A DNA stretch of 64,000 bases, from assembly GCF_018417595.1 (NCBI RefSeq), contig NZ_CP070982.1, forward strand, positions 4,019,001 through 4,083,000. Direction: 5' to 3'. Positions 12,168 through 32,334 of this stretch are shown piece by piece. Within the stretch, counting starts at the first letter, position 1; each line of letters opens with the position of its first letter. The stretch is from Pseudomonas entomophila (GTDB lineage: Bacteria > Pseudomonadota > Gammaproteobacteria > Pseudomonadales > Pseudomonadaceae). The notes beneath the pieces were generated by a model. The model had not been told where the DNA came from. It ran no database searches and saw only the letters and a program-made list of their open reading frames with translations. The position numbers and the translations under genes are program-made.

Positions 12168-12256
12168 TCTGCCGGAGCGGGCTTACCCGCCAAGAATACG
12201 ACGCGGTGCATGGCACCGGCCATGCCGGTGTTCGCGGGTAAACCCGCTCCCACAGG
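12168..12256. repeat. Inverted REP pair (REPIN)
   Basis: Two REP-type palindromes with the GCGGGTAAACCCGCTCC core face each other between the convergent opmQ and pvdP genes. The paired arms could also help end transcription. Confidence 0.7.
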
Positions 12257-12356
12257 CACTGCGCCAATTTCGGAATCAGTACTGTCCCTGTAGGCGCCGG
12301 GCCGGCACAGTCAATACGGCACAGCTCGAACAGCGTCAGCGGCCTGAAGGCCGCCC

Positions 12357-13979: not shown

Positions 13980-14027
13980 TGCGCCTCAGTCCATTCCCGC
14001 CATGCTGCGGTGTCTATCCAAGCTAGG

Positions 14028-14051
14028 ACGTAGGCTGGGGCTGAAAATTTA
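14028..14051 (-). promoter_or_regulatory. Iron-starvation (IS) box promoter of pvdP
   Basis: On the minus strand GCTAAAT is followed by 16 bases and CGT, ending 49 bases before the pvdP start. Same motif and spacing as at pvdR and pvdH. Confidence 0.8.
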
Positions 14052-14127
14052 GCGCCCGCCGGGCAAGCCTAATTCAAGCCCGCGCGGACTCGTCTGATCA
14101 GTACCCCCTACCAACAGAGGTACGACC

Positions 14128-15060: not shown

Positions 15061-15070
15061 TGCGCCGCTT

Positions 15071-15102
15071 CCTGTAGGGGCCAGCTTGCTGGCTCCTACA
15101 GG
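15071..15102. repeat. Palindromic REP hairpin between convergent genes
   Basis: A near-perfect hairpin with arms CCTGTAGG...CCTACAGG and inner GGCCAGC/GCTGGC lies between the siderophore reductase and pvdH. It is placed to act as a transcript end on both strands. Confidence 0.65.
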
Positions 15103-15117
15103 GTGGGGTGCGCGGCG

Positions 15118-16512: not shown

Positions 16513-16594
16513 CGGAAAAGTCCTCGCAAGCAAGCGAAAGTGCCCGCCACGCGCCCTGTAACCGGATGTGTGTCGGGTGGTCATCGCTTGGAAA

Positions 16595-16618
16595 ACGCTT
16601 CAGCGAGGGAAGGATTTA
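16595..16618 (-). promoter_or_regulatory. Iron-starvation (IS) box promoter of pvdH
   Basis: On the minus strand GCTAAAT, 16 bases, CGT. Third exact copy of the PvdS-type motif in this block. Confidence 0.8.
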
Positions 16619-16719
16619 GCGGCTGGTGTGGTATTTGTGATGGCTGCGCAGCGCTGACTCAACAATCATGCCAAGCCCGCTCCCACGAACTTTTCCTGGC
16701 CAGAGCCATGCATGCACAC

Positions 16720-18042: not shown

Positions 18043-18722
18043 GACGACGCCTCCTGCGGCGCCTGCGCCGGCCCCAGGCGATAGCCCAGGCCACGCACGG
18101 TCTCGACAATGCCGTTGCCCAGCTTGCGGCGCAGATGGTGGATATGCACGTTGAGGGCGTTGCTTTCGACCTCGTCGCTGAAGCCGTACACGCAATCTTT
18201 CAACTGCTCACTGGACAACACCCGCCCCGGGTTCTGCAGCAGCGCCTGGAGCAACGCCTGCTCGCGACGCGACAAGTCCACCGGCGCGCCGGCCAGGGTC
18301 GCTACACAGCTGCTCGGGTCGTAGCACAGCGGCCCATGCTCGATCACGTTGACCGCCCGCCCCGCCACCCGCCGCAGCAGGGTGTGCAGGCGCGCCGCCA
18401 GTTCGCGCAGGTCGAACGGTTTGAGCAGGTAATCGTCGGCTCCCGCCTGCAAGCCATCGACCCGGTCGGTGACCGCGTCGCGCGCGGTCAGCACCAGCAC
18501 CGGCAGCGTTTCGCCCTGCTGGCGCAGGCGGCGCAACAGTTTCAGGCCATCTTCGTCGGGCAGCCCCAGGTCGAGGATCATCACGTCGAACTGCGCAGCC
18601 TGGAGCATCTGCCGCGCCTGCGACGCGCTCGCCACCCGGTCCACGGTCAGGCCCTGGGCCGAGAGCCCGGCGCAGATGCCGCTGGCGATCAGGTCGTCGT
18701 CCTCGCAGAGCAGAACGTGCAT
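18039..18722 (-). CDS. Two-component response regulator, OmpR family (QseB/PmrA-like)
   Basis: A 227-residue regulator. The receiver has the acidic triad in LLCEDDDLIASGI, phospho-acceptor Asp in VMILDLGLPDEDGLKLL and Lys in DYLLKPFDLRELAARL. The winged helix ends EVESNALNVHIHHLRRKLGN, GIVETVRGLGYRLG. The start at 18722 is supported by AGGAG 8 bases upstream. It is the first gene of the operon with the kinase at 16720-18042. Confidence 0.92.
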   Translation of the reverse strand: MHVLLCEDDDLIASGICAGLSAQGLTVDRVASASQARQMLQAAQFDVMILDLGLPDEDGLKLLRRLRQQGETLPVLVLTARDAVTDRVDGLQAGADDYLLKPFDLRELAARLHTLLRRVAGRAVNVIEHGPLCYDPSSCVATLAGAPVDLSRREQALLQALLQNPGRVLSSEQLKDCVYGFSDEVESNALNVHIHHLRRKLGNGIVETVRGLGYRLGPAQAPQEASS

Positions 18723-18851
18723 GGGGAAGTCTCCTGGGGTGGGGAAGCTGGCATTGCACAGGATGGTGATTAAGGGGGGATTATGACCCTTGGCGCGGGT
18801 TTCGTCGTGGGGTGCCGTATTGGCGGGCTGTAGCCTTGCAGCACTGTTGGG

Positions 18852-19008
18852 ATCGAGCGCCGCTACGCGCCGCATCGCGGATGAATCCGCTCCTACACAC
18901 AGGGCATGATTGTCCGCCTTGTTGGCACGACGCTATATTTCGAGCTGGCAACCCTGGCCTGTAGGAGCGGATTCATCCGCGATGCGCCGCACAGCGGCGC
19001 TCAATCTC
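18852..19008. repeat. REPIN: inverted pair of REP sequences
   Basis: Two REP arms with the core CGCGGATGAATCCGCTCCTAC lie in opposite orientation (about 18852-18898 and 18959-19008), separated by roughly 60 bp. They fill most of the 351-bp gap between the response regulator and the GFA-family gene; nothing else is evident there. Confidence 0.8.
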
Positions 19009-19073
19009 AACCGCGCTACAACCCCTTCGTCGAGCCCCTCGCAAGCACCAGGCTCAAGGCTGGAAATGATCAA

Positions 19074-19454
19074 ATGAACGATACCTACCAAGGCAGCTGC
19101 CTGTGCACGGCGGTACGCTATGAATTGCAGACCGCGCCAAAGGCGGTCAGCCATTGCCATTGCAGCCAGTGCCGCAAGGGACATGGTGCGCTGTTCGCCA
19201 CTTACGGCAGCGTGCCTCGCGGTGCACTGCGAATACTGGAAGGGGCTGACTGCCTCACCGAATACCCCTCTTCCGAATCGGTACTGCGCACCTTCTGCGC
19301 ACGATGCGGCTCATCCTTGTTCTGGTCGCGCTCACAGGGCGAGTTCACCGACTGGGTTTCCATCGCGTTGGCTACGCTCGATACGCCCTTCACCCCAGAA
19401 AAGCACAAACACATTCATCTCGACTCAGCGGTTCACTGGTACCCACACACCTGA
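19074..19454 (+). CDS. GFA / CENP-V family zinc protein
   Basis: A 126-residue protein of the glutathione-dependent formaldehyde-activating (GFA) fold. The zinc-binding cysteines are clear: GSCLCTAVRYEL, SHCHCSQCRKGHG and FCARCGSSLFW. Most family members are small cytosolic proteins without proven formaldehyde activity, so a specific reaction should not be assumed. The start at 19074 gives the standard N-terminus; the ribosome site (GGAAATG) is weak. Confidence 0.85.
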   Translation: MNDTYQGSCLCTAVRYELQTAPKAVSHCHCSQCRKGHGALFATYGSVPRGALRILEGADCLTEYPSSESVLRTFCARCGSSLFWSRSQGEFTDWVSIALATLDTPFTPEKHKHIHLDSAVHWYPHT

Positions 19455-19483
19455 GTGCAAATCACCGGACAAGGATGAACGAC

Positions 19484-20044
19484 ATGGTTTCGCTGACCCA
19501 CGCGCGCGTATTGGACATCGCACTGGAAAACGCCACCAATCGCGCATTGCTCGCGCTGCTGCCCACACTGGACCTGCCCAACTGCATGCTAACGGCAGGC
19601 TGCCTGTTCCAGACGTTCTGGAACGTCCGCTCGGGCCGAGCGGCCGAATGGGGCATCAAGGACTACGACATCGCCTATTTCGATGAAGACCTGTCGTGGG
19701 AAGCCGAGGACCGGGTGATCGCCCGGGTGCGTGACGCTTGCGAGCACCTTGGGGTCAATGTGGAAGTGCGCAACCAGGCCAGGGTTCATCTCTGGTATGA
19801 AGCCAAGTTCGGGGCGCACTATCCGCCGTTGCAGTCGGTGACCGAGGGGATAGACCGCTACCTCATCTGCTCCACTTGCCTGGGCGTGGAAGTCGGCACG
19901 GGTGAGCTGTACAGCACCTATGGCCTCGAAGACCTGCAAGACGACGTGCTGAGAATGAATGCCCGGAACCCGCAGCCGGTGCTGTTCAGGCGCAAGGCCG
20001 ACAGCTATCGGGAGCGGTGGCCTTGGTTGAAGGTCGCTGGCTAG
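19484..20044 (+). CDS. Nucleotidyltransferase family protein (DUF925 type)
   Basis: About 186 residues, resembling the NTP_transf_6/DUF925 family. The active-site-like stretch is WGIKDYDIAYFDEDLSWEAE, and family motifs continue in EVRNQARVHLWYEAKFG and STYGLEDLQDDVLRMNARNP. The ATG at 19484 has AAGGA 8 bases upstream and is preferred over ATG 19475. It overlaps the 3' end of the convergent Nudix gene by 4 bases. Substrate unknown. Confidence 0.75.
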   Translation: MVSLTHARVLDIALENATNRALLALLPTLDLPNCMLTAGCLFQTFWNVRSGRAAEWGIKDYDIAYFDEDLSWEAEDRVIARVRDACEHLGVNVEVRNQARVHLWYEAKFGAHYPPLQSVTEGIDRYLICSTCLGVEVGTGELYSTYGLEDLQDDVLRMNARNPQPVLFRRKADSYRERWPWLKVAG

Positions 20045-20448
20045 GCGAGTGCCTGGTGTAGATGGGCCAGCGCTCGCTGAAAGACTGGGTGACAGTCCGC
20101 GTAGGGCAACTGATCGAGTGGAGCCCAGAAAAACTCGAACACGTGGCCATGGTCGTCCAGGGTCTGGTGAGACCAATGCTCAGGCAGTGCCGCTTGCACC
20201 TGGCACAGGTGGAACGACCAGACCTGATCAAGGTGTCCGGATGCCCAGCAACCCAAGTCATCCTTGATCGTTGCGCCATGGATACCCGACTCCTCCGCCA
20301 ATTCGCGCAAAGCCGCCTCACGCGGTGCTTCGCCCTGTTCGATGGTGCCTTTCACCAGCTGCACCCCGGCCAAGGGGTGGCGAAACAGAAGGATTAGCGG
20401 CTGCGGCGTGGATGAGAGCACTACGGCACAGGCCTTGGCTGGCAGCAT
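20041..20448 (-). CDS. Nudix hydrolase
   Basis: A 135-residue single-domain Nudix protein. The Nudix box is complete: GTIEQGEAPREAALRELAEE followed by SGI (GX5EX7REUXEEXGU), at about residues 34-56. It starts MLPAKACAVVL with the usual first strand. The nucleotide-diphosphate substrate cannot be inferred. Confidence 0.88.
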   Translation of the reverse strand: MLPAKACAVVLSSTPQPLILLFRHPLAGVQLVKGTIEQGEAPREAALRELAEESGIHGATIKDDLGCWASGHLDQVWSFHLCQVQAALPEHWSHQTLDDHGHVFEFFWAPLDQLPYADCHPVFQRALAHLHQALA

Positions 20449-20619
20449 GGCGATGTCCTTTTCGGGGATGACGGCTGGTTATCTTACCGTTGCAGGCCGT
20501 AGCGAAGACTCCCCACGTGAAGTGACCACGGTTTAAGTGGCGAAAATCAGATTTCACCGCTTCCTTGTAGTCCATTTCCCAAACATACTGCTGCGGCCTT
20601 TTTTCCGTTGCGACCTCCC
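20449..20619. other. Intergenic stretch entering the left direct repeat
   Basis: No gene is seen. The duplicated segment begins near 20538, at TGGCGAAAATCAGA. Confidence 0.5.
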
Positions 20620-20839
20620 AGGCAGGGCTCTAGTCTCGGCGAGTCGCTGGTGTTCAGCGACCGGCTTTGACAGGCCGCGACGGTATTAAGCATGCGGCTA
20701 GCCCTTGATGGCGGCTGTACGTGCGGGCACGCTCGCGTGCGCCGGAACTTTGCTTATTCCGCCGGTCTGTCAACCCGCGTACAGCTGCCACCCTTCTGTT
20801 TGACAGCAGACAGGTGGCAGCCCTCAAAGGAATAAGAAG
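20620..20839 (+). ncRNA. Candidate structured leader RNA upstream of DUF6124 gene (copy A)
   Basis: The leader can form a hairpin TCGCTG/CAGCGA (20644-20660) and a 12-bp stem GGCGGCTGTACG (20710-20721) with CGTACAGCTGCC (20778-20789), enclosing a GCACGC/GCGTGC hairpin. The 3' arm can instead pair as GCTGCCACC (20784-20792) with GGTGGCAGC (20813-20821), just before the AAAGGA ribosome site. The two pairings exclude each other, as in an attenuator or riboswitch. Copy B keeps the main stems with compensating changes. I do not recognise a named RNA family. Confidence 0.5.
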
Positions 20840-21085
20840 ATGCTAAAGATCGTCCCCGATCCACCCCACAACCACCACTCCCTCGAAGACACCATCATCC
20901 GGGCCACGGAGTACGCTCTCTGCGCGCAGACCGTGGCGCATCAGGCTGTTCTGCTGCATCCCAAGTCGCCCGTGTCGATTCTGGTCATGGCCGCGATGCA
21001 TGAAATGGAGGCGCTGCGGGTGCTGCTCGAATCGGCGTTGATTCAGGTGCAGATGCCGCAGGTGGAGCCTCGCACGTTGCATTAA
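20840..21085 (+). CDS. DUF6124 family protein (copy A)
   Basis: An 81-residue protein resembling the DUF6124 family of small Pseudomonas proteins: a conserved basic/proline start (MLKIVPDPP), then two amphipathic helices (EDTIIRATEYALCAQTVAHQ; VSILVMAAMHEMEALRVLLE). Function unknown. The start is fixed by AAAGGA 10 bases upstream. It follows a structured leader and precedes a DUF3077 gene. A nearly identical copy is at 30215-30460. Confidence 0.75.
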   Translation: MLKIVPDPPHNHHSLEDTIIRATEYALCAQTVAHQAVLLHPKSPVSILVMAAMHEMEALRVLLESALIQVQMPQVEPRTLH

Positions 21086-21119
21086 GGTGTTAGCCATAGG
21101 TTGCCTGGGCTGGCCTCAT

Positions 21120-21145
21120 CGCCGGCAAGCCGGCTCCCACAGGGG
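21120..21145. repeat. Single REP element
   Basis: The palindromic core GCCGGCAAGCCGGCTCC sits between the DUF6124 and DUF3077 genes. The corresponding spacer in copy B carries an inverted pair instead. Confidence 0.6.
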
Positions 21146-21233
21146 ATCGGCGTGGCTGCGCGGCAGATGCTGTGTAGCTGATTGCTGGACTACCTGCTCG
21201 CCCAGGCACCGATCATTTCAGGGAGATTGAGCC

Positions 21234-21503
21234 ATGAGCACAGACGACACCACGCCCCACACCACCGTGGGCAAGACCAAGTTCTACCAGGGTGAAAAGC
21301 ATACCGACCCGCTGTTCTGCATCGAACCCGGCATCCCTTGCCAGCACGCACGGGAACAGGCTTCGGAATTGATGGGCTGCGTGTGCGACCTGACCATCAC
21401 CGGGATCATGGAGGAAAAGCCTCAGCTGATCTGGGCATCGTATTACCTGAGCGCGCTGGCCAAGGCGCTGATGGATGATGCGGAGTTGGGGATGAAGCAT
21501 TAA
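21234..21503 (+). CDS. DUF3077 family protein (copy A)
   Basis: An 89-residue protein matching the DUF3077 pattern: GKTKFYQGEKHTDPLFCIEP, then CQHAREQASELMGCVCDLTI and a C-terminal helix ASYYLSALAKALMDDAELGM. Function unknown. An AGGGAGA ribosome site precedes the ATG. Copy B (30599-30868) differs by one residue (Glu/Asp at about position 67). Confidence 0.78.
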   Translation: MSTDDTTPHTTVGKTKFYQGEKHTDPLFCIEPGIPCQHAREQASELMGCVCDLTITGIMEEKPQLIWASYYLSALAKALMDDAELGMKH

Positions 21504-21551
21504 GGCGTTGTTTTTTCGAGGCGTTTGACGAAAGGGTTGCAGCGCCTGGGA

Positions 21552-21769
21552 GATCGAGCGCCGCCCGCGCGGCGCATCGCGGATGAATCCGCTCCTACAT
21601 CGGTTGCAACGTGCCGCATCTGTCAGGCCATAGTTGCCTGCCTTGGCGCCAGCCGAAAAATCGCGTCGTACAAACAAGGCGAACAACCATGGCCTATCAG
21701 GCATAGGCACGTTGCAACAAATGTAGGAGCGGATTCATCCGCGATGCGCCGCGCGGGCGGCGCTCGATC
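21552..21769. repeat. Long REPIN with 49-bp perfect inverted arms (copy A)
   Basis: Arms 21552-21600 and 21721-21769 are perfect reverse complements. Pairing continues inside through GTTGCAACGTGC/GCACGTTGCAAC. The element fills most of the 464-bp gap between the DUF3077 gene and the dusA fragment and could form a large cruciform. Confidence 0.85.
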
Positions 21770-21967
21770 TTGAATGCGGTGCATGGCTACCGCCCTGCAC
21801 CTGGCTGCCAACACACGATCAAAAACACTTCACCCCCGGCCGGCACCTTAATCGCCAATCGGACCGGACGAATCCCACCATGCTTGGTAAACTGGCGCCC
21901 ATCAACCTATCCATCGCCTGCCAGCGGGACCCGCCGCCTGGCTTCGCTGAGTTCGTGCCCCAGACAT

Positions 21968-22066
21968 ATGCAATCTCAAGCCGCTTCCTCCTTGCGCCCC
22001 GAGCCATCCCGCCGCTTCAGCGTTGCGCCGATGATGGATTGGGCGGGTACTTCTATCAGCCTTTGA
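21968..22066 (+). pseudogene. dusA: dusA 5' fragment (left island junction)
   Basis: The first 25 codons of tRNA-dihydrouridine synthase A, identical to intact dusA at 31333, run up to VAPMMDW. At 22042 the frame enters island sequence and stops after seven foreign codons. This marks the left junction of the inserted island. Confidence 0.9.
22025..22042 (+). mobile_element. Candidate attachment site, left (in dusA)
   Basis: An 18-bp sequence GCGCCGATGATGGATTGG is shared with 31390-31407 at the exact end of homology. The conserved start of dusA is a known target of a class of tyrosine recombinases. Direct evidence of site-specific recombination is lacking, since identity extends 1.5 kb to the left. 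Confidence 0.55.
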
Positions 22067-22381
22067 TTTCCGCGTAATCTCTAGCGCCATAAATCCATCC
22101 GTACCAATTTTTTACCAACCAAATCTTTTGACGACAGTCATAAAAGCCCCAGTGTCGCCTTGGCTCTGCTAGACACTCTATGCTGCATCGATCACGGCCT
22201 GGCGAGTTCGATCCTTCATGGTAGCCGGCACAAAAGACATCGCTTTTTGATCGGCCGGTCAATCAAACATCATGGGTCGAAAGCTCATATCCAGGCCTGC
22301 GGTGGTTTTTGGCGTGTGCCGATGGCGCACATGCAGGGCACTGTGCCACTATTCGGGTAACGAATGAAGAAGAGGTCTGTG
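22067..22381. other. Left end of island, no recognised gene
   Basis: About 315 bp. A minus-strand open frame of 68 codons (22056-22262) is the only candidate; I see no family motif in it. The promoter of the nuclease gene should lie here, but no convincing -10/-35 pair was found. Confidence 0.4.
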
Positions 22382-24181
22382 ATGAAGCTCTCTGGAATCC
22401 GTATCAGAAATTATCGAACCATTGCCAATGAGCAGACGGTGGATTTGAGTCGTGGAATGACTTTAGTGGGGCCAAACAACGCTGGTAAAACTAATATTTT
22501 AACAGCTATAAAAATGTTGTTTACCGGCTATGAAAACGTACATGCCTATTCCCGAGAGCATGATCTTACCTTCGGTGAACGTTCCGGACAAACAAGCCTC
22601 GTGGGTGTCTTCACCGGCGACAGTGCCGGTAAAGATAAGGCGATTTATGACTTACTCGCCGAACTGAAAGGAATGCTACAAGCGGAGGGAGCTGCAGAAT
22701 ACGTCAACGACAACGAGATCCACCTCTACCTTACCTTCACTACAACTTCCAATCCATCATATCGATTCTTCCCCAACTCCAAACGCCCTACGGATGCCAG
22801 TGGCAAATCTGCTTTCTCACGCAAAGAACGGGATCTAGTGCAAAAGCTATTAGCCAGCTTTGTATGCCATTATGTTCCATCAAACAAGTCATTTGAAAAT
22901 ATTTATCAAGAACCTCTCACCCCCTTCATCAAAAAACACGTTTCCAAATCACTAGAAAACAAAGTTAAAGAAATCGAAAACAGTTTGGCAACCACCGCCT
23001 CCAGCTTGACATCAGCGCTCAAAGACTGTGGACTTCCGGATATTTCCGTTCGTTTCGACATGCCCAACAAAGCTCTCACAGACTTACTAAGCGGCTTCGA
23101 GTTTAAACTGCGCGACCCCAATGAAACATCTGTATTCAAAAAAGGAGTTGGCATTCAGTCAACAGCAATTTTGTCTTCATTCGACTGGATCACTCAGCAA
23201 GAAGTAGATGGCGGACTGGAGGTTATCTGGCTCATTGAAGAGCCTGAGGCATTTTTACACCCCACACTCAATACTGTCTGCAAACGACTCTTAGCGAGAC
23301 TGCAATCCAGAAGCCTTGTAGTTATCACCACACACTCACTTAGTTTCGTCCCGCAAAACCCGGCCCTTACGGCGGGCGTGACACGGTCCGACGGTAACAA
23401 ATCATTGATTTCCAAATATAAAACCTATAGAGAATCAACTGAAGCCATCCGCAAGTCCATCGGCGTAAAATTCTCAGACTTCTTCAATCTTGGCCAATTA
23501 AATGTACTACTGGAAGGTCCTTCAGACAGGGAGTACCTTGAATGGATCTTGAAAATACTGGACCCAGCCGACTACCCTCTATCTCATCTACGGTCAAGTG
23601 AATGCCATTATTTAGACTATGGCGGCGTAACTCACTTAGCTGGATTTCTTCGGGCCACCTGGGAGTTCATCAGAAGTGAGACCTGTGTAGTATCTGTCTT
23701 TGACGGGGATCCTGCGGGAGAGCGGGAGCGAAGAAACTTACAACAGTATTTTGGCCAGAAAGATATCCCATTCCAGCCGAACGACGACTTCATATCTGTA
23801 CGCAAGGGCTTTCCAATCGAGGCTTTGTTCCCAGACAGCTGGATCAGCAAATGTAAAACAGCCCATCCAAATTGGTTCTCTGACTTCTCAGTAGATGTTT
23901 CAGGCGAGCTGGAAGCCTTCGAATTAAAAGACGGCTCCAAAAAGAGCTTTGCGGCATTCGTAAAGGATTTGGCCAATAAAGCCGAGAACTTAGAATGGGC
24001 TAAAAGATGGATCGACGTCTGCAACGCCCTCGATAACGCCTTAAGAAATAAAAAGATCAAACTTTCACTAAGTGAGGGAGCAATAGAACTAGCTGACCTT
24101 ACTGAGGACACAGAGCCGCTGAACGAGAATGATATCGACATCGATGCCGCGAAGAATACTGAACCCGTTGCGATCGCCTAG
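22382..24181 (+). CDS. OLD-family ATP-dependent nuclease (ABC ATPase + TOPRIM, GajA-like)
   Basis: A 599-residue protein with the OLD architecture. The ABC-type ATPase comes first: Walker A VGPNNAGKTN (about residues 29-38), a signature-like KKGVGIQST (about 253), Walker B VIWLIEEPEAFLHP (about 280) and switch His in TTHSLSF. The C-terminal TOPRIM nuclease domain has the acidic residues LLEGPSDREYLEWIL (about 376) and VSVFDGDPAGER (about 438). OLD-like proteins include phage P2 Old and Gabija GajA, so antiphage DNA cleavage is a fair inference. No UvrD-like GajB partner is adjacent; the next gene is a small membrane protein. I chose ATG 22382 because AGAGG lies 6 bases upstream. Confidence 0.85.
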   Translation: MKLSGIRIRNYRTIANEQTVDLSRGMTLVGPNNAGKTNILTAIKMLFTGYENVHAYSREHDLTFGERSGQTSLVGVFTGDSAGKDKAIYDLLAELKGMLQAEGAAEYVNDNEIHLYLTFTTTSNPSYRFFPNSKRPTDASGKSAFSRKERDLVQKLLASFVCHYVPSNKSFENIYQEPLTPFIKKHVSKSLENKVKEIENSLATTASSLTSALKDCGLPDISVRFDMPNKALTDLLSGFEFKLRDPNETSVFKKGVGIQSTAILSSFDWITQQEVDGGLEVIWLIEEPEAFLHPTLNTVCKRLLARLQSRSLVVITTHSLSFVPQNPALTAGVTRSDGNKSLISKYKTYRESTEAIRKSIGVKFSDFFNLGQLNVLLEGPSDREYLEWILKILDPADYPLSHLRSSECHYLDYGGVTHLAGFLRATWEFIRSETCVVSVFDGDPAGERERRNLQQYFGQKDIPFQPNDDFISVRKGFPIEALFPDSWISKCKTAHPNWFSDFSVDVSGELEAFELKDGSKKSFAAFVKDLANKAENLEWAKRWIDVCNALDNALRNKKIKLSLSEGAIELADLTEDTEPLNENDIDIDAAKNTEPVAIA

Positions 24182-24221
24182 TTTCGGCCGAGCCTTCGAC
24201 GCTGCCATTTAGCCTAGGGGG

Positions 24222-24929
24222 ATGAATTTTAAACCATGCGCGATAATCATATTCATTATAACCATAGCAGCCGACATAATAATGGACATCGAATCTTTTC
24301 AGCAATGCCTGACCTACATAAAATCCAACAATGCAGCAAAACCTATAATTGAGACATTGCTCCCTTACGGGAGTGCGCTAGCAGGAGTTATTATTGGCTT
24401 TTTATTAAATCAAACGCGAGATTGGTGGAAAGATCGAAACTCGCTAAAAAATAAGAAAAAATGCATTAGCGAAGACGTCCATCGAGCTCGGCACTCAATG
24501 CAGCTTGCCATCAAAGAATGCGTCAGCATTTTAAACATTCTTATCATAAAAAAACTTCCTTCCGGCCACAATTTTCCGACAGGTTTCAAAACCCCTTTGC
24601 TAGAGGAATACTTTCCAGCCATTGCGCACACATACAGCGTTCAAGACAGATACTTTTTGAAAGAACTCGACACACACACCAACCACCTAGAGCGTCTTAC
24701 AAAAGAATTATCACCAGACAAAGGCGTCTTCGGTTTTTCCCTTACCACCTTAGAAATCCTAAACACTTGTGCAACTATGATAGGGATGTGCGACCTTTTA
24801 CTAGGCGAGCAAAATCGAGACAACTTACCTGCCCTACTAACATCGCTCGGGCATAATAATGATGACTTATTAGTCATTGAGATAATGTCTGAAAATGCCG
24901 AACAAAATAACGACAAACTCAAACTCTAA
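24222..24929 (+). CDS. Two-TM protein of unknown function, partner gene of the OLD-like nuclease
   Basis: 235 residues, not recognised. An N-terminal hydrophobic helix (CAIIIFIITIAADIIM) and a second one at about residues 50-66 (YGSALAGVIIGFLLN) are followed by a basic stop-transfer stretch and a 160-residue helical domain predicted cytosolic. It starts 40 bases after the nuclease stop in the same direction and shares its AT-rich codon use, so the two are probably co-transcribed. The GGGG site abuts the ATG, so the start is uncertain; ATG 24282 would remove the first helix. Membrane partners are common in abortive-infection pairs, but that role is inference. Confidence 0.65.
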   Translation: MNFKPCAIIIFIITIAADIIMDIESFQQCLTYIKSNNAAKPIIETLLPYGSALAGVIIGFLLNQTRDWWKDRNSLKNKKKCISEDVHRARHSMQLAIKECVSILNILIIKKLPSGHNFPTGFKTPLLEEYFPAIAHTYSVQDRYFLKELDTHTNHLERLTKELSPDKGVFGFSLTTLEILNTCATMIGMCDLLLGEQNRDNLPALLTSLGHNNDDLLVIEIMSENAEQNNDKLKL

Positions 24930-25026
24930 TAACCAGCTCGTTTCTGTTGGGACCACAGTTTAAAAGATGGCTGGGCATACAATGGTGTGCGACTCGCCCC
25001 AATTCTGCGCCAGTCGCCGCGAGCGT

Positions 25027-26208
25027 TCAGCTCGCGGATACGATCCAAAGTTGGTCGACCCGCGTCGTGTAGGACTGACTCATCATCTCCCGACGCATCC
25101 CCCAATAGGGGGTGCGGGGGACGCTCCCTGCCCGCACCGTTCCCCTGCCATACCGGTCGTTGATCTCATCAAGCACCGACATCAGCCGGCAACTAGTCAC
25201 CGGCTGGGTCACCGCGAACAGGTCGTCGGTGAACTCACCAGGCTGCCGCAGATCGAGTAGCAACACCTCGGCCTTGCTGTATCGGTAACCGGACTGGTAG
25301 ACACGCTCCACAGCCTCAGTTGCCGCCCGAGTCAGTAGCAAGGTGTCGTTGGTGGGATACGGCAGGTCGACCAGCGCACCTTTGGCAAAGTGCAGCTCGT
25401 TAGGGTTGAACATGCCGGTGCGGATCGACACTCGCATCCGCTTGCACAACGAGCCCTGGGCTCGCAGCTTTTCGGCTGCCCTGCCCGTGTAGGTGGCCAC
25501 TGCCTGCTTGATCGGCGTCAGCTCCGTCAGGCGCTTGCCGAACATCCGGCTGCAGCAGATCTCCTGCTTCGGTGGATCTGCCTCATCCAGTTCAAGGCAT
25601 GGCGTGCCGGCAAGTTCACGGGCGGTCTTCTCTACCACCACACTGAACTTGTCGCGCAGCATCCTCGGATCAGCCTTGGCCAGCTCCATCGCCGTGCGAA
25701 TGCCCATGGCTTCCAGGTGCGCCGTCATCCGCCGGCCGATGCCCCACACCTCTTTCACCTCGGTGTTACGCAGCACCCAGTCGCGCTTGAAGTCATCTGT
25801 GATGTCGACCACACCGCCAGTCTGCGCCTGCAAGCGCTTTGCGGTGTGGTTGGCGAGCTTCGCCAGGGTTTTGGTGCGGGCGATCCCGACACCAACAGGA
25901 ATGCCCGTGCAGCGCAGTACTTTGGCGCGCACATCCCGGCCGAGCTGGGAGAGGCTGCCCGTCATGCCGGTGAGATCGGCGAAGCACTCATCGATCGAAT
26001 AGACCTCGGCCGCCGGCACCATCGATTCGATCAGTGACATGACCCGCTCGCTCATGTCGCCATACAGCGCGTAGTTCGACGAGAAGGCCACAATGCCATG
26101 CCGGCGAAGTTTTTCCTTCGCCTGAAAGTAGGGCTCCCCCATCCTCACGAACGGCTTCGCATCGTACGACCTGGCGATCACACAGCCGTCTGAATATCTG
26201 AATGACAC
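25027..26208 (-). pseudogene. umuC: umuC, 5'-truncated (DNA polymerase V catalytic subunit remnant)
   Basis: About 393 codons of a Y-family translesion polymerase. Homology starts abruptly at SDGCVIARSYDAKPFVRMGE and runs to a normal C-terminus (VPRTPYWGMRREMMSQSYTT). The N-terminal 25-30 residues, including the catalytic Asp of the VDxNSFYAS motif, are missing; upstream codons are unrelated and quickly reach a stop. The second catalytic motif YSIDECFADL is intact. No umuD lies upstream. Without the first metal-binding Asp it should lack polymerase activity. Higher G+C than its island neighbours suggests a different origin. Confidence 0.85.
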
Positions 26209-26290
26209 TAACAGTTAGCGCCCTGTAAATCATTGATTTATAGATAAATTATCTATCTAACAGTTTTTAAGATTTTAGTATCGACGATAC
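26208..26290. repeat. Cluster of four short perfect palindromes
   Basis: Four odd-length palindromes occur in 83 bp: CTAACAGTTAG (26208-26218), TAAATCATTGATTTA (26226-26240), GATAAATTATC (26243-26253) and GTATCGACGATAC (26278-26290). They begin exactly at the break in umuC. They could be operator half-sites, a recombination or resolution site, or the scar of a lost element. Confidence 0.5.
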
Positions 26291-26335
26291 CGTCTAGGTG
26301 ACGCGCTCGAAGGAATAAGAGCTCGCGCAATGTTT

Positions 26336-26473
26336 CTACAGGTGGGTAGCAGACGCCTGCCAACCCGCGTCCCTGTCGCACGGATCATTCTTCACCATCT
26401 CTAGAGAAATGCCCGCCCAAGCAACGTTCACATATGCAGGCGCCTCGAAATCGGCTTCAATAGCATTGATGGC
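26336..26473 (-). other. Possible gene remnant, 45 codons
   Basis: An open minus-strand segment lies between two stops, with protein-like composition (EAPAYVNVAWAGISLEMVKN). It has no start codon or ribosome site, and I cannot name a family. The rest of the 339-bp gap between umuC and the PHP-ATPase holds the palindrome cluster. Confidence 0.25.
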
Positions 26474-26547
26474 TCAATGCTACCCGCACTGTAAGTAGAA
26501 AAAACAGCCAAACTCGAAAGCTTGCAACTCTAAATGGATGATTTGAA

Positions 26548-29451
26548 GTGAATAAGACTTACCCAAAAGGATCGGAATGGCGCAAATGGGATCTTCACGT
26601 GCACACCCCTGCCTCTGTGCTCAGAAATGAATTTGGCCAAGACTGGGACAGATATGTAACCGAACTCTTCACGCGAGCTATTGCATCCGGAGTTAGCGCA
26701 ATTGGTGTTACCGATTATTATCTACCAGAAGGGTACAAGATTCTTAGACAGAATTATTTAGACAACCCTGAAAAGATGCAGGAACTTTTTGATACCCAAA
26801 CTCTTCTTGCCATTAACGAAATCAAAGTATTTCCCAATATAGAGTTCCGAATTAACAAATTGGTTATTGGCAAAGAAGCCGATCTTTCCTGGAATCGAAA
26901 GGTCAACTACCACGTTCTATTATCCGATGAAATACCTGTAGAAAAAATTGAAAGCGATTTCATTTCGCAGATCCAGATTTTTTTCAATGCTACCGTTGGC
27001 AGCCAAATTGAGCGCCGTCCACTTACAAGATCTAATCTTGAAGAACTGGGTCAGCGTTTGATTGCAGAACACCCACCATTCGCAACAAGTGGTAGCGCAT
27101 TATTCGTTGGAATGATGTGCGCATCTGTAGATGAAGATGAAATTTCGAGACTTCTTAATCAGAATGCTTTTTTTAGAGAAAGGTACCTGACAGCTCTTCC
27201 GTGCGACGAAGACCTTAGCGATGTCAACTGGAACTCACAGGGACACAATTTACGCAAAAACCTTATAAAACAGGCCCACTTCATATTTTCGTCAAATCAA
27301 AAAACCGCAGCATTCTTTCTTGGCGGCAAAGAAAAAACTTCCTTCATAAAAGAGTTTGGAGCAATTAAAGCTTGTTTATGGGGCTCCGACGCACATAAAT
27401 GGGATGAGCTATTCAACCCCGCCAAAAATAGACATACATGGATCAAAGGTGATTTAACTTTTTCAGGCTTAAAACAGGTGATTTACGATCCTAGCTCAAG
27501 GGTTGCGATACAAGAGCTCTCACCGCAGCAAAAAAGCCCGTACCAGACCATTGAAAAAGTTCGCTTCATAAACAATGGACAGCAAAAGCTATTTAACGAG
27601 GAATGGCAAGAACTCAATCCGGATCTGAATACGATAATAGGAGGGAAATCTTCCGGCAAATCTTTATTACTCTATCATATTGCCAAAGCGGTAAATGCAG
27701 AAGAAGTTGACAGTAAAATACAGTTAGCTAAGGCGTCGACTTACACGGGATTACCGTCTCTTGACTTTGAAGTGCACTGGTCTAACGGCGATGTTAGCCG
27801 GCTTTCAGAAACCTCAGAAAAAAAGCCCATAACATATATACCTCAGCTCTATATTAACCATCTCGCCGAGGAAGATGGAAGATCCCAGCTCAACACGCTA
27901 GTGCAGGACATACTTCTACAAAACTCAACATTTCAACATTTTTCTGAAAACCAAGAAAGAAAAATAGTTACAACCAACAAAGATATAAATCAAAAGATCG
28001 ACTCTTTTTTTGAGCTTAGAGCCAAGTACAGCTCTCTAAATAAGGAGGCAGAGGCAATTGGAACGCGACCTGCTATTACGGCCGAGATTGAAAGATTGCA
28101 AACTGAAATTAAAACTTTGCGCGAAAAATCCGGCTTCTCCGATTTAGAGGAGCAGAAATACAAGCGTCTTTCGACTCGCAAATCAAGCCTTGATAAGCGG
28201 GAAGCTATTATTTCCAAAATTGAGACTGGGTGTCAGCAGATAACCGCTTCTGTCACGAGTAGATTTAATGCCCAAATCGAAACCCTTAAAGACTCAATAC
28301 TTGCTGATATAGATCTGCCAAGCGAGTCAACCTTTGCAAGCAATGCCCTGGACTCTTTAGAGCGAAAACTATTGTGCACAGTTGAAAACTTTAAGCAAGA
28401 ACTATCTCACAGCATTCAAAACACACCAGCATTAAATATAAAAATAGCAACTGAATCCCGCGAGATCGACAAAGCGCTTCAACCTCTTTTAATTAAAATT
28501 ACTGACCAAGCAACACTTGACCTTGCAACCAAAAAGCTAAAAGCAGAGGAAGCAAAGCTAAAACAGCTAGATGATATTGCCGAGAAACAAACATCAATAA
28601 AAACACAAGGGTTAGATTGCAAGCAAGAGCTAACCAATCTATACACCCAACTTATACAAACCTATTACGATTATGCTAAAGAAACCTCAAAGCCGGATTA
28701 TCAATTTGAAGACGACATTGCGGTATCAGCAGAAGTCATGCTGAACGAGGATAAATTCAACGAGTTCTCCCTGCTATTTGATCGGCGCGGTAATATGAGC
28801 ACTTTATTAGGTGATCTGCTACTACCCACGGGCGAGCTAAACTTCAATATCGAAACCCATGCAGAACGCATCACAAATACACACTCTACCTATATCAAAA
28901 AGATCAATATTCCCGCGACTCGCAAAGGCATAGAAGACATTGAAGTAATTAGAAAGCTTTATAGCGATTGCTTTTATATAAACTATGTTGTTCATTATAA
29001 AAGCGATGATATCGCAACCATGTCACCAGGCAAACGTGGATTGGTGCTATTAAATTTGATTTTACACTTAAGCAACGCATCACATCCAATTCTTATCGAC
29101 CAACCAGAAGATAACTTAGATAACAGAACTATTTACGACCAACTGAAAGATTTTATCAGGCAGAAAAAAAGAAAACGCCAAATAATTATGGTCACTCACA
29201 ACGCGAACCTAGTGGTAGCAGCTGATGCGGAGTGCGTAATTGTAGCGAACCAAGCAGGCCAACAATCGGATACCACTGTAGACAACTATCGATTCGAATA
29301 TTTCAGTGGAAGCTTAGAGTGCTCTTATGAGGCACCGCTGACAGGCGGCCCATTGAGATCTCAGGGCATCCGCCAGCATGTATGCGAGATCCTTGAAGGC
29401 GGAGTTACGGCCTTCAAGGAACGGGAACTAAAGTATGGCTTTAAAATTTAG
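26548..29451 (+). CDS. TrlF-like PHP-domain / ABC-type ATPase
   Basis: A 967-residue protein. The N-terminal PHP phosphoesterase domain opens with KWDLHVHTPAS (metal-binding HxH, about residues 17-21) and continues with GVTDYYLPEG and the metal-site segment LWGSDAHKWDEL. An SMC-like ATPase follows: Walker A IIGGKSSGKSLLLYH (about 364), a long helical coiled-coil middle (about 470-720), signature MSPGKRGLVLLN (about 825), Walker B PILIDQPEDNLDN (about 848) and VTHNANLVV. This fusion is the TrlF architecture; related PHP-ATPases occur in phage-defence loci. Start is GTG 26548. It appears to stand alone as a one-gene unit. Confidence 0.82.
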   Translation: MNKTYPKGSEWRKWDLHVHTPASVLRNEFGQDWDRYVTELFTRAIASGVSAIGVTDYYLPEGYKILRQNYLDNPEKMQELFDTQTLLAINEIKVFPNIEFRINKLVIGKEADLSWNRKVNYHVLLSDEIPVEKIESDFISQIQIFFNATVGSQIERRPLTRSNLEELGQRLIAEHPPFATSGSALFVGMMCASVDEDEISRLLNQNAFFRERYLTALPCDEDLSDVNWNSQGHNLRKNLIKQAHFIFSSNQKTAAFFLGGKEKTSFIKEFGAIKACLWGSDAHKWDELFNPAKNRHTWIKGDLTFSGLKQVIYDPSSRVAIQELSPQQKSPYQTIEKVRFINNGQQKLFNEEWQELNPDLNTIIGGKSSGKSLLLYHIAKAVNAEEVDSKIQLAKASTYTGLPSLDFEVHWSNGDVSRLSETSEKKPITYIPQLYINHLAEEDGRSQLNTLVQDILLQNSTFQHFSENQERKIVTTNKDINQKIDSFFELRAKYSSLNKEAEAIGTRPAITAEIERLQTEIKTLREKSGFSDLEEQKYKRLSTRKSSLDKREAIISKIETGCQQITASVTSRFNAQIETLKDSILADIDLPSESTFASNALDSLERKLLCTVENFKQELSHSIQNTPALNIKIATESREIDKALQPLLIKITDQATLDLATKKLKAEEAKLKQLDDIAEKQTSIKTQGLDCKQELTNLYTQLIQTYYDYAKETSKPDYQFEDDIAVSAEVMLNEDKFNEFSLLFDRRGNMSTLLGDLLLPTGELNFNIETHAERITNTHSTYIKKINIPATRKGIEDIEVIRKLYSDCFYINYVVHYKSDDIATMSPGKRGLVLLNLILHLSNASHPILIDQPEDNLDNRTIYDQLKDFIRQKKRKRQIIMVTHNANLVVAADAECVIVANQAGQQSDTTVDNYRFEYFSGSLECSYEAPLTGGPLRSQGIRQHVCEILEGGVTAFKERELKYGFKI

Positions 29452-29560
29452 CTATTATCAAATAAGGCGTGAAGAATTTTTCTTTAGCTTTGTCTGATCG
29501 CAGATCTGTTAAGTTGATTTAACAAACGAAAAAAATAAAAAGGAAGGACAACACTCTCAA

Positions 29561-29589
29561 TCAGGGGCCTTTCCGTTAGGGGGCCCTGA
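29561..29589. terminator. Hairpin between PHP-ATPase and Rz remnant
   Basis: TCAGGGGCC pairs with GGGGCCCTGA around an 11-nt loop (29561-29589). It could end transcription of the convergent flanking genes, though the T-tract is poor. Confidence 0.4.
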
Positions 29590-29602
29590 CTTCGGTACCT
29601 CT

Positions 29603-29875
29603 TTACAAGCGGGTCACTTCACACACGTAGGCCTGGCAGGCCTTCAGCGCGATCACTGCTCAATCACCTTCATCGGTGATGGCGACAATTCGCCGAGCAT
29701 GCGCTGGGTCAAGTTGGGCGCATACGGCTCCATCCACCAAGCCTCCGGTGTCGGCAGGCGTTCGCACCCCACTGTCATCACCCGAGGCGGCAACGGTTCC
29801 GGCATCGAGTAGGACTGACAACCGCAGATCAGCAGTAGCCAGCCGGTCGCGCAGGCGACACTGCGCGCTGAAACA
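29603..29875 (-). pseudogene. Phage i-spanin (Rz) C-terminal remnant
   Basis: Reading RLRDRLATADLRLSVLLDAG, then LVDGAVCAQLDPAHARRIVA and ITDEGD, an in-frame TGA (29660-29662), then AVIALKACQAYVCEVTRL and TAA. This is the typical C-terminus of Rz from Pseudomonas prophages, with one premature stop and no N-terminal membrane anchor. It shows that a prophage once occupied this dusA site. Confidence 0.75.
29653..29850 (-). pseudogene. Overlapping phage o-spanin (Rz1-like lipoprotein) remnant
   Basis: Out of frame with Rz, the same DNA encodes GWLLLICGCQSYSMPEPLPP, then RVMTVGCERLPTPEAWWMEP and YAPNLTQRMLGELSPSP: a lipobox (LLICGC), a proline-rich stretch and the conserved tail of Rz1-like proteins. 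The nested Rz/Rz1 arrangement is diagnostic of tailed phages. No good start codon remains. Confidence 0.65.
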
Positions 29876-29989
29876 TCATTGATTTCCTCCCAAGACGCTC
29901 ACTCGCCTCTGGCGAAAATCAGACTTAACCGCTTCCTTGTAGTCCATTTCCCAAACATACTGCTGCCGCCTTTTTTCCGTTGCGGTCGC

Positions 29990-30214
29990 CCTGGTGGGGC
30001 TCTAGTCTCGGCCTGTCGTTGCACATCAACGATACAGCTTTGACAGGCTGTGACGGCAAATTGCATGCAGCTAAACCTTTATGGCAGCTGTACGTGCGGG
30101 CACGCTTGCGTGCGCCGGAACTTTGCAATTTCCGCCGGTCTGTCAACCCACGTACAGCTGCCACCCTACCGTTTGACAGCAGGCAGGTGGCCGCACCACC
30201 AAAGGGAAGTTGCT
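29990..30214 (+). ncRNA. Candidate structured leader RNA upstream of DUF6124 gene (copy B)
   Basis: Same fold as copy A with compensating changes: first hairpin TCGTTG/CAACGA instead of TCGCTG/CAGCGA; CAGC/GCTG instead of CGGC/GCCG in the second; and GGCAGCTGTACG (30083-30094) pairing with CGTACAGCTGCC (30151-30162), where an A-T pair replaces the G-U of copy A. The alternative pairing of GCTGCCACC (30157-30165) with GGTGGCCGC (30186-30194) has one mismatch. Paired changes over an otherwise divergent leader argue for selection on RNA structure. Confidence 0.5.
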
Positions 30215-30460
30215 ATGTTAAAGATCGTCCCCGATCCACCCCACAACCACCACTCCCTCGAAGACACCATCATTCAGGCCACGGAGTACGCCCTGTGCGC
30301 GCAGACCGTGGCGCATCAGGCTGTTCTACTGCATCCCAAGTCGCCCGTGTCGATTCTGGTCATGGCCGCGATGCATGAAATGGAGGCGCTGCGAGTGCTG
30401 CTCGAATCGGCGTTGATTCAGGTGCAGATACCGCAGGTGGAGCCTCGCACGTTGCATTAA
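30215..30460 (+). CDS. DUF6124 family protein (copy B)
   Basis: 81 residues, differing from copy A at two positions (Gln for Arg at about 21; Ile for Met near the end). Same helices and unknown function. Its leader is diverged while the protein is conserved, so both copies may be functional. Preceded by the ribosome site AAGGGAAG. Confidence 0.75.
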   Translation: MLKIVPDPPHNHHSLEDTIIQATEYALCAQTVAHQAVLLHPKSPVSILVMAAMHEMEALRVLLESALIQVQIPQVEPRTLH

Positions 30461-30496
30461 GCCGGTATGTCGTGAGTTGCCTGGCGGGCCCTGTTC

Positions 30497-30563
30497 GCCG
30501 GCAAGCCGGCTCCAACAAGGGGCGCGAATCGCCTGTAGGAGCCGGCTTGCCGGCGAATGGGCC
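30497..30563. repeat. Inverted REP pair
   Basis: Two REP cores (GCCGGCAAGCCGGCTCC and its reverse complement) flank a short spacer between the DUF6124 and DUF3077 genes of copy B. Copy A has only one. Confidence 0.7.
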
Positions 30564-30598
30564 AGGCCAGGCACCCAGCACTTCAGGGAGATTGAGTC

Positions 30599-30868
30599 AT
30601 GAGCACAGACGACACCACGCCCCACACCACCGTGGGCAAGACCAAGTTCTACCAGGGTGAAAAGCATACCGACCCGCTGTTCTGCATCGAACCCGGCATC
30701 CCTTGCCAGCACGCACGGGAACAGGCTTCGGAGTTGATGGGCTGCGTGTGCGACCTGACCATCACCGGGATCATGGAGGACAAGCCTCAGCTGATCTGGG
30801 CATCGTATTACCTCAGCGCGCTGGCCAAGGCGCTGATGGATGATGCGGAGTTGGGGATGAAGCATTAA
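30599..30868 (+). CDS. DUF3077 family protein (copy B)
   Basis: 89 residues, one conservative difference from copy A. Same AGGGAGA ribosome site. It sits directly before the REPIN and intact dusA. Confidence 0.78.
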   Translation: MSTDDTTPHTTVGKTKFYQGEKHTDPLFCIEPGIPCQHAREQASELMGCVCDLTITGIMEDKPQLIWASYYLSALAKALMDDAELGMKH

Positions 30869-30916
30869 GGCGTTGTTTTTTCGAGGTGTTTGACGAAAGG
30901 GTTGCAGCGCCTGGGA

Positions 30917-31134
30917 GATCGAGCGCCGCCCGCGCGGCGCATCGCGGATGAATCCGCTCCTACATCGGTTGCAACGTGCCGCATCTGTCAGGCCATAGTT
31001 GCCTGCCTTGGCGCCAGCCGAAAAATCGCGTCGTACAAACAAGGCGAACAACCATGGCCTATCAGGCATAGGCACGTTGCAACAAATGTAGGAGCGGATT
31101 CATCCGCGATGCGCCGCGCGGGCGGCGCTCGATC
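30917..31134. repeat. Long REPIN with 49-bp perfect inverted arms (copy B)
   Basis: Arms 30917-30965 and 31086-31134, the same element as at 21552-21769. It fills the gap between the DUF3077 gene and dusA. Confidence 0.85.
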
Positions 31135-31332
31135 TTGAATGCGGTGCATGGCTACCGCCCTGCACCTGGCTGCCAACACACGATCAAAAACACTTCCCCC
31201 CCGGCCGGCACCTTAATCGCCAATCGGACCGGACGAATCCCACCATGCTTGGTAAACTGGCGCCCATCAACCTATCCATCGCCTGCCAGCGGGACCCGCC
31301 GCCTGGCTTCGCTGAGTTCGTGCCCCAGACAT

Positions 31333-32334
31333 ATGCAATCTCAAGCCGCTTCCTCCTTGCGCCCCGAGCCATCCCGCCGCTTCAGCGTTGCGCCGATGAT
31401 GGATTGGACAGACCGCCACTGCCGCTTCTTCCTGCGTCTGCTCTCCAAACACGCCCTGCTCTACACCGAGATGGTCACCACCGGCGCCCTGCTGCACAAC
31501 GACGCCCACCGTTTCCTGCGCCACGACGACAGCGAGCACCCGCTGGCCCTGCAACTGGGTGGCAGCGTGCCAGCGGACCTGGCGGCCTGCGCGCGCATGG
31601 CTGAAGAAGCCGGCTACGATGAGGTCAACCTCAACGTCGGCTGCCCCAGCGACCGGGTGCAGAACAACATGATCGGCGCCTGCCTGATGGGCCACCCGGC
31701 GCTGGTGGCCGATTGCGTCAAGGCGATGCAGGACGCCGTGAGCATTCCGGTGACGGTCAAGCACCGCATCGGCATCAACGGCCGCGACAGCTACGCCGAA
31801 CTGTGCGACTTCGTCGGCCAGGTGCGCGACGCGGGCTGTCGCAGCTTCACCGTGCATGCGCGCATCGCCATTCTCGAAGGGCTGTCGCCCAAGGAGAACC
31901 GCGAGATCCCACCACTGCGCTATGACGTGGCGGCGCAACTGAAGACGGACTTCCCGGACCTGGAGCTGGTGCTCAATGGCGGGATCAAGACCCTCGAGGA
32001 GTGCCGCACGCACCTGGAAACCTTCGATGGCGTGATGCTGGGGCGCGAGGCGTATCACAACCCCTACCTGCTGGCCGAGGTCGACCAGCAGTTGTTCGGC
32101 AGCAGCGAGCCGGTGATCAGCCGCGCCGAAGCGATGGCCAAGCTGCGCCCGTATATCGTCGCGCATATGGAAAGCGGCGGCGCTATGCATCACATTACCC
32201 GGCATATCCTTGGCCTGGGCCAGGGCTTCCCAGGTGCTCGGCGCTTCCGTCAGCTGTTGTCGGCGGACATCCACAAGACCGACACGCCGTTGGCAGTGCT
32301 GGACCAGGCCGCAGAGCTGCTGCAGGGGCGCTGA
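31333..32334 (+). CDS. dusA: tRNA-dihydrouridine(20/20a) synthase DusA
   Basis: A 333-residue FMN enzyme that reduces U20/U20a of tRNAs to dihydrouridine. Conserved blocks: FSVAPMMDWTDRHCRFFLRL, EVNLNVGCPSDRVQ with the catalytic Cys, VTVKHRIGIN, SFTVHARIAILEGLSPKENR, NGGI and MLGREAYHNPYLLAEVD. The start at 31333 gives a full-length protein. Codons 1-25 lie inside the direct repeat, so the 5' end may have been restored from incoming DNA at insertion. The gene looks intact and functional. Confidence 0.95.
   Translation: MQSQAASSLRPEPSRRFSVAPMMDWTDRHCRFFLRLLSKHALLYTEMVTTGALLHNDAHRFLRHDDSEHPLALQLGGSVPADLAACARMAEEAGYDEVNLNVGCPSDRVQNNMIGACLMGHPALVADCVKAMQDAVSIPVTVKHRIGINGRDSYAELCDFVGQVRDAGCRSFTVHARIAILEGLSPKENREIPPLRYDVAAQLKTDFPDLELVLNGGIKTLEECRTHLETFDGVMLGREAYHNPYLLAEVDQQLFGSSEPVISRAEAMAKLRPYIVAHMESGGAMHHITRHILGLGQGFPGARRFRQLLSADIHKTDTPLAVLDQAAELLQGR
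31390..31407 (+). mobile_element. Candidate attachment site, right (in intact dusA)
   Basis: Same 18-bp core as at 22025-22042, spanning codons 20-25 (APMMDW) of dusA. Confidence 0.55.

Follow-up and report, generated by a model that had tools for sequence, protein, structure and literature searches.

The window analysed here is a stretch of 64,000 nucleotides from the chromosome of Pseudomonas entomophila (NCBI RefSeq assembly GCF_018417595.1, contig NZ_CP070982.1, positions 4,019,001 to 4,083,000), corresponding to C1:4019001-4083000 of a one-contig genome of 5.96 Mb. It carries an island of putative defence genes between two direct copies of a 1.5-kb segment that end within the 5' part of dusA. 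We consider it moderately probable that this island is the relic of a dusA-specific island or prophage, the right end of which was replaced by a captured host flank, with OLD-like and TrlF-like genes trapped inside. The features on which this reading is built are the following.

20538-22042, + strand: left (L) copy, comprising a leader, an 81-aa open reading frame (ORF), a DUF3077 ORF, a pair of repetitive extragenic palindromic (REP) sequences, the dusA upstream part and a truncated dusA of 25 codons (alignment)
20840-21085, + strand: 81-aa ORF of the cassette, L copy (Pfam: no match)
21234-21503, + strand: DUF3077 ORF, L copy (PF11275, E value 2.1e-15)
22007-22042, + strand: left attachment (att) core (genome search, alignment)
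22043-22363, + strand: left end of the element, with the arm-like motif GTACCA at 22101, 58 bp beyond the core (survey, alignment)
29625-29897, - strand: what remains of a gene for a phage Rz-like spanin, immediately to the left of the R copy (29625-29866 by BLAST match, up to 29897 by eye)
29910-31407, + strand: right (R) copy, occupying the slot of the integrase and the element dusA start in integrase-bearing elements (alignment, survey)
30215-30460, + strand: 81-aa ORF of the cassette, R copy (alignment with the L copy)
30599-30868, + strand: DUF3077 ORF, R copy (ORF list)
31372-31407, + strand: right att core (genome search, alignment)
31333-32334, + strand: dusA, intact, with a host-type N-terminus (PF01207)

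When the L copy (20538-22042) was aligned with the R copy (29910-31407), 92.3% identity was obtained over 1513 columns, and the two were found to share the same terminal base, after codon 25 of dusA; from the dusA start at 31333 to the end of the repeat at 31407 there are exactly 25 codons (MQSQAASSLRPEPSRRFSVAPMMDW). The first-pass annotation had described two such copies of about 1.5 kb with a common end base within these codons, and the alignment bears it out. Its further description of about 7.9 kb of AT-rich DNA between the copies holds for the spacer as a whole (22043-29909; 7,867 bp with a GC content of 46.8%, against 62.1% for the window) but not for all of its parts, the umuC piece reaching 61.6% and the Rz piece 61.5%. 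Identity between the copies forms a mosaic, with 83.4% in the leader (range 83-86%, or 14-17% divergence), 96.7% in the 81-aa ORF, 69.3% in the intergenic stretch, 98.9% in the DUF3077 ORF, 99.6% in the REP region, 99.5% in the dusA upstream part and 100% in the dusA 5' end. Among the 529 bases on the dusA side, 527 are identical and 2 differ. The sequence comes from a single assembly without reads, which leaves some room for an artefact joining two alleles; the annotation had itself considered an assembly error joining the repeats. We regard such an artefact as extremely improbable in view of the one-contig genome, the many differing sites and a comparable two-copy layout in another genome (G102); a simple mis-join is likewise unlikely in a genome assembled into one contig, with differences spread along the two copies.

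The end shared by the two copies includes a 36-bp core, 22007-22042, which is identical at 36 of 36 positions to 31372-31407, and the island begins directly after the left one, in agreement with the precise insertion site in dusA that had been proposed. A dusA query was matched in all 99 genus genomes searched (own included), and many of them gave a second match near query positions 237-272 (36 bp, with 31407 as the last base), at distances of up to about 94 kb from dusA. At the threshold applied, the window contains two cores only. According to Farrugia et al. (2015; PMC4482086), dusA-specific islands have 21-bp consensus repeats and sites of 26-28 bp, carry an integrase adjoining dusA and supply a new dusA 5' end. 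The 36-bp shared end is the insertion core of such islands, and the DNA from 22043 onward resembles their left end. In a survey of two-core dusA loci, 29 were attempted and 26 kept, three (G019, G037 and G067) being dropped after the core was not found on one side. The motif GTACCA lies 58-59 bp past the left core in 16 of the 26 loci, the window included, of which 13 also have it at 69-70 bp, while 2 of the 26 have it at 69 bp only; in the window it stands at 58 bp, with a modified second copy near 69 bp. Since the known core forms the common end, and since the left end is like that of dusA elements, original entry was probably site-specific at the core, with the integrase end lost afterwards or during capture.

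Two further observations concern the core. A variant ending in ATGGATCGG, followed by GTCGATTAA or ATCGATTAA, occurs in three genomes without dusA behind it (L165 of G391 at 12228, L167 of G288 at 1472 and L150 of G025 at 13021), and is perhaps the end of another element in tandem. In G025 (L150, L166; C31) and G077, the dusA query matched only the upstream or core parts, without the dusA body, despite a listed completeness of 100% for both genomes.

At the right end, the components expected of an integrative element are missing. None of the genome's 9 matches to PF00589 falls inside the island, and tblastn searches of it with the dusA integrases of G345 and G025 returned nothing at E values up to 10. 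The absence of a visible integrase, noted from the sequence earlier, is thereby confirmed by both searches, and a divergent integrase within the spacer, matched by neither of them, was rejected. In the integrase-bearing loci G057, G345 and G025, the integrase reads away from dusA. What stands next to the R copy is the Rz remnant, which is 86.8% identical to positions 7936-8177 of G025, where the full-length gene matches phrog_2466 (Rz-like spanin) and is part of an element in which a tail gene and an integrase are present as well. The gap between this piece and the R copy is about 12 bp, or 43 bp when counted from the end of the BLAST match. The dusA start that an element would supply is also absent, both the dusA upstream part and the N-terminus being of host type: the latter reads MQSQAA.., comparable to MHSQAA.. 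in G102, G199 and G174. The dusA starts of the integrase-bearing G345 and G057 differ (..SKPETTRPEP and ..SKPQTTRPEP), and that of G127 reads MHPNATSS....

Across the 26 surveyed loci, an integrase lies within 3.5 kb of the right core in 20, and in 17 of these the match starts 70-118 bp from the core end (the match is partial in G094 and in pieces in G072 and G157). The other 6 are the window, G102, G199, G044, G394 and G041, the search in G041 covering the outer stretches only. Left-right repeats longer than 100 bp occur in 5 of these 6 loci (all except G041) and in 4 of the 20 integrase-bearing ones (G026, G192, G256 and G072). Since the left copy in G026, G192 and G256 contains a 5' fragment of an integrase gene, these repeats represent integrase DNA of an older tandem element, and the 138-bp repeat of G072 is presumably of the same kind because it extends past the position where integrase genes start. 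The repeats of G044 and G394 are probably host-type, given that their right-hand upstream 200 bp match each other (colinear, 87.6%) and that the stretches searched there yielded no integrase. Host-type repeats of this length were thus assigned to 5 of the 6 loci without an integrase and to 0 of the 20 with one, in a small and non-random sample; a Fisher value of 1.4e-4, entered with 18 rather than 20 integrase-bearing loci, serves as a rough guide only.

The junction present in the sequence links a broken Rz gene with a host-type copy of the dusA upstream DNA, and therefore the long repeat is most likely host flank and not an attachment site. The history that we propose would begin with site-specific integration at the 36-bp core, as suggested by the core and the left end, followed by loss of the right end, including the integrase and the element-supplied dusA start, while the left and middle parts remained. 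Two routes could lead to this outcome. In the first, aberrant excision would have produced a circle of host left flank and the left part of the element, as in specialised transduction, and this circle would have returned to dusA through a single crossover within the common flank. In the second, DNA carrying an intact dusA start would have replaced the right end where it stood, with an anchor in dusA or the core on one side and an illegitimate junction at Rz on the other. The earlier annotation had offered a circle with host flank entering by single crossover, or an earlier capture of flanking genes; host flank carried by the element remains the best reading, but one-sided repair in place would give the same structure. 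By either route, the host start and promoter region of dusA would be restored, and the OLD-like and TrlF-like genes would no longer have an integrase of their own with which to leave; they could still exit by recombination between the copies, as a predicted circle of about 9.37 kb. The return of a host-type dusA start may point to selection for dusA expression.

Comparison with relatives bears on this history and on two alternatives to it. The nearest genome found, G127, has flanks at 91-96% identity, the left flank (window positions 12353-20487) at 91.4%; after the equivalent of position 20487 it contains 3.36 kb of other DNA with a 707-aa ORF, which we take to be acyltransferase-like, and then a single 5'-truncated, R-like cassette and dusA, without the L copy. 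A search for closer relatives matched 5 of 194 genomes at E ≤ 1e-20, own included, and none was new. Examination of 80 of the 582 named dusA loci gave only weak cassette matches (90 bp of the leader at 74% in L104; 66-71% about 5 kb from dusA in L111) and no match to the dusA upstream part among the matches listed. G025 has a left copy and an integrase-bearing element, the dusA body not being found on the stretches read. In other Pseudomonas, related arrangements were identified: in G199, the dusA upstream part of the left copy is shortened, the right side consists of the dusA upstream part alone, and the island between them carries a 581-aa AIPR/AbiU-like gene and umuC. Because related layouts occur in G102 and G199, and shorter ones in G044 and G394, the two-copy arrangement is not unique.

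G102 has two copies, of which the right one lacks DUF3077. The 1.85 kb enclosed by them is different DNA, and an Rz piece precedes the right copy. This order (cassette and core, element with Rz piece, cassette, core, dusA) agrees with that of the window despite unrelated content, as if one right end were circulating, and it would fit an element that arrived complete, its right end already consisting of Rz piece, cassette and dusA start, and that owed its insertion at the core to a trans-acting integrase. No such element with an integrase was seen in the loci examined, and the distance from Rz to the cassette is about 12-43 bp in the window compared with about 285 bp in G102, so the two junctions may be separate; we judge arrival as a complete unit to be rather unlikely. 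The locus of G174, with one full copy and an 80-bp dusA upstream remnant (90%) about 90 bp left of the cassette, is relevant to a second alternative, in which an ancient tandem duplication of the cassette and the dusA 5' end came first, and the element entered the core of the left (pseudo) copy and later lost its right end and core. The deep divergence of the L and R leaders could also be explained in this way. A third core must, however, have been lost, the window having two at the threshold used; the last 529 bases of L and R show just 2 differences; and the G174 remnant could equally be an island deleted to almost nothing. An initial duplication therefore appears about as improbable as the arrival of a finished unit.

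Several observations weigh against an island relic with a captured host flank. The exact motif GTACCA is missing in 8 of the 26 surveyed loci, including G102, and the repeat measures just about 100-175 bp in G199, G044 and G394. The survey itself is small, with non-random and phylogenetically dependent loci and a 100-bp threshold chosen after seeing the data. For the comparison with an empty dusA locus, envisaged in the first-pass annotation, G127 offers one copy and no L copy, but that copy is partial and R-like, the different 3.36-kb insert is present, and an intact empty site was not seen. The leaders are 14-17% apart and the 3' ends nearly identical, so that a single recent copying event would need later conversion or two source strains. 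Finally, the 81-aa ORF of both copies is 94-98% identical to one group of non-dusA cassettes in relatives and 84-87% identical to the dusA-linked ones; for this reason, the dusA upstream part alone, and not the gene pair, can be regarded as clearly dusA-locus host DNA on these comparisons.

The gene pair belongs to a multicopy cassette, the unit of which comprises a leader of about 300 bp, the 81-aa ORF (presumably DUF6124, although the Pfam scan gave no match) and the DUF3077 ORF. Positions 1-1233 of the repeat match further loci of the same genome, the best third copy being that at C1:3947875 (93%), followed by three loci at 76-83% and partial ones, for a total of about ten full or partial copies; in each of five relatives, between 2 and 13 matches were obtained at E ≤ 1e-60, and some of these represent pieces of one copy. 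By comparison, a search of 398 genomes with the 272 bp at 21771-22042 matched only the two dusA copies in the own genome, and the dusA upstream part was reached in 8 of the 397 other genomes, among the matches listed. The L intergenic stretch is identical at 148 of 148 positions to the C1:3947875 copy and 69.3% identical to R, while the R stretch is closer to G127 (85.9% vs 71.0%); the nearest leader relatives also differ (G174_C12 at 94.9% for R; G025_C33 at 86.8% for L). Cassette copies thus convert between loci, and for that reason the divergence of the repeat gives no age: dating the insertion from L and R was rejected, as the nearest relatives vary from segment to segment. The abundance of copies and the conversion, including the perfect 148-bp match, could also accommodate two unrelated cassette insertions homogenised by gene conversion and unconnected with the island. 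This we consider very unlikely, as the dusA-specific 272 bp are present in both copies, each of which terminates at the att core, and chance placement of both borders is hardly to be expected.

The surroundings of the cassette were also surveyed. Nineteen non-dusA cassettes from the own genome, G127, G025, G174 and G102 were counted, leaving out the own loci L260 and L263 and the second L261 piece, where the leader match was below 200 bp. Of these, 12 adjoin a 1-kb bin with a GC content of at most 52%, and such bins make up 13 of 37 next to a cassette vs 8 of 88 at a distance of 4-7 kb; AT-rich accessory genes are thus found beside such cassettes (window 20538-21503; L255-L274) more frequently than in the neighbouring DNA. 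A helicase-DUF2290 pair (PADLOC models) adjoins the C1:3947875 cassette (L255:6908-9767), and the integrase-bearing dusA element of G345 carries a relative with 69.6% nucleotide identity (L154:10918-13768). The seven other cassette-adjoining ORFs scanned in Pfam (L256, L258, L264, L265, L266, L272 and L274) were all without a family.

It is conceivable, though in our view quite unlikely, that the gene pair and its 300-bp leader form a dispersed homology anchor, the borders of which are hotspots for AT-rich defence and immunity genes, and that islands between two anchors, their integrase gone, are exchanged between loci and strains by ordinary recombination. Defence genes would then be shuffled without an integrase. 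That defence-type genes simply gather at variable sites would be an equally good account.

The cargo and the chromosomal left flank contain the following genes.

20041-20448, - strand: NUDIX gene of the chromosomal left flank (PF00293; flank conserved in G127)
22364-24181, + strand: OLD-family-like ATPase/nuclease, 605 aa (AAA_15; PADLOC Old, 105.7 bits; similarity to solved OLD and GajA chains)
24222-24929, + strand: 235-aa protein without an assigned function (3 relatives in the protein database, one in P. soli)
25027-26208, - strand: UmuC without about its first 30 residues (NF002955, 429 bits with a cut-off of 431, profile positions 33-420 of 422)
26548-29451, + strand: TrlF-family AAA-like ATPase, 967 aa (NF045780, 606.5 bits with a cut-off of 350; 93% in G335)

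The earlier view of the cargo as defence-type is supported by hidden Markov model (HMM) matches of the OLD-like and TrlF-like genes and by the similarity of the former to solved OLD and GajA chains, their defence activity being putative and assigned by family membership. The OLD-like protein has database relatives with up to 90% identity, one at 88% being named P. protegens. Its C-terminal half contains the motif-like LLEGPSDREYLEW and SVFDGDPAGE, which, read by eye, we take to resemble a TOPRIM motif; a Pfam scan of the protein gave no TOPRIM match. No GajB-like UvrD helicase was matched in the 4 main island ORFs scanned, and a Gabija (GajA-GajB) pair was rejected on this basis. Relatives of the OLD-like protein were found in 3 of 50,697 phage records (24-26% identity) and at 3 loci in IMG/VR (37%), where the 235-aa protein had none. 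The TrlF-like protein was matched in 1073 of 72,556 plasmid records, and in 170 of these a single place covers 80% or more, with one exception at less than 60% identity throughout. In the 397 other genus genomes, the OLD-like protein occurs in 9 at E ≤ 1e-60 (38-46%) and the TrlF-like protein in 1 at E ≤ 1e-150 (G335, 93%); the cargo thus says little about the donor. The TrlF gene abuts a umuC 5' fragment in G335 as well (window 26009-29599 vs L251:1344-4941, 89.4% over 3.6 kb), the TrlF module lying beside umuC in both genomes as if umuC were its own insertion site.

If the proposed history is right, it offers a concrete route by which mobile islands may become fixed: the target gene regains its host start, the integrase disappears, and the defence genes are left between long repeats of host DNA, which can still recombine. 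It also calls for caution, in that long repeats on either side of an island are not necessarily attachment sites. As dusA is a frequent insertion site in Pseudomonas, the idea is testable in many genomes. No report of long repeats or integrase-less relics at dusA was found among the titles and abstract beginnings listed from one collection of openly licensed papers (CC0, CC BY or CC BY-SA), which is not proof of their absence.

Specialised transduction of the lambda dgal type involves integration by homology in a captured host flank. If a circle made up of host flank and a prophage segment integrated through a single crossover, the duplication described here is exactly what would result. The cargo resembles OLD/GajA nucleases and TrlF ATPases in its HMM family matches and its similarity to solved OLD and GajA chains, and it differs from Gabija in having no GajB-like helicase beside the OLD-like gene. 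Homology-facilitated illegitimate recombination leading to displacement arrays has been proposed for effector-immunity genes of the type VI secretion system (T6SS) in Vibrio (Kirchberger et al., 2017; PMC5361080). As there, one end of the island would be anchored by homology and the other illegitimate, with the displaced older segment left beside the new one; Vibrio T6SS genes are concerned in that case and the integrase end at dusA in the present one. The island also resembles the dusA-specific islands and prophages with dusA-associated integrases (PMC4482086). The insertion point in the 5' part of dusA, the cores at both ends, the variable cargo and a similar left end are shared; the window, unlike these islands, has no integrase beside dusA, a host-type dusA start and a 1.5-kb repeat. 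It has the appearance of an element of a known type that has been disabled and locally rearranged.

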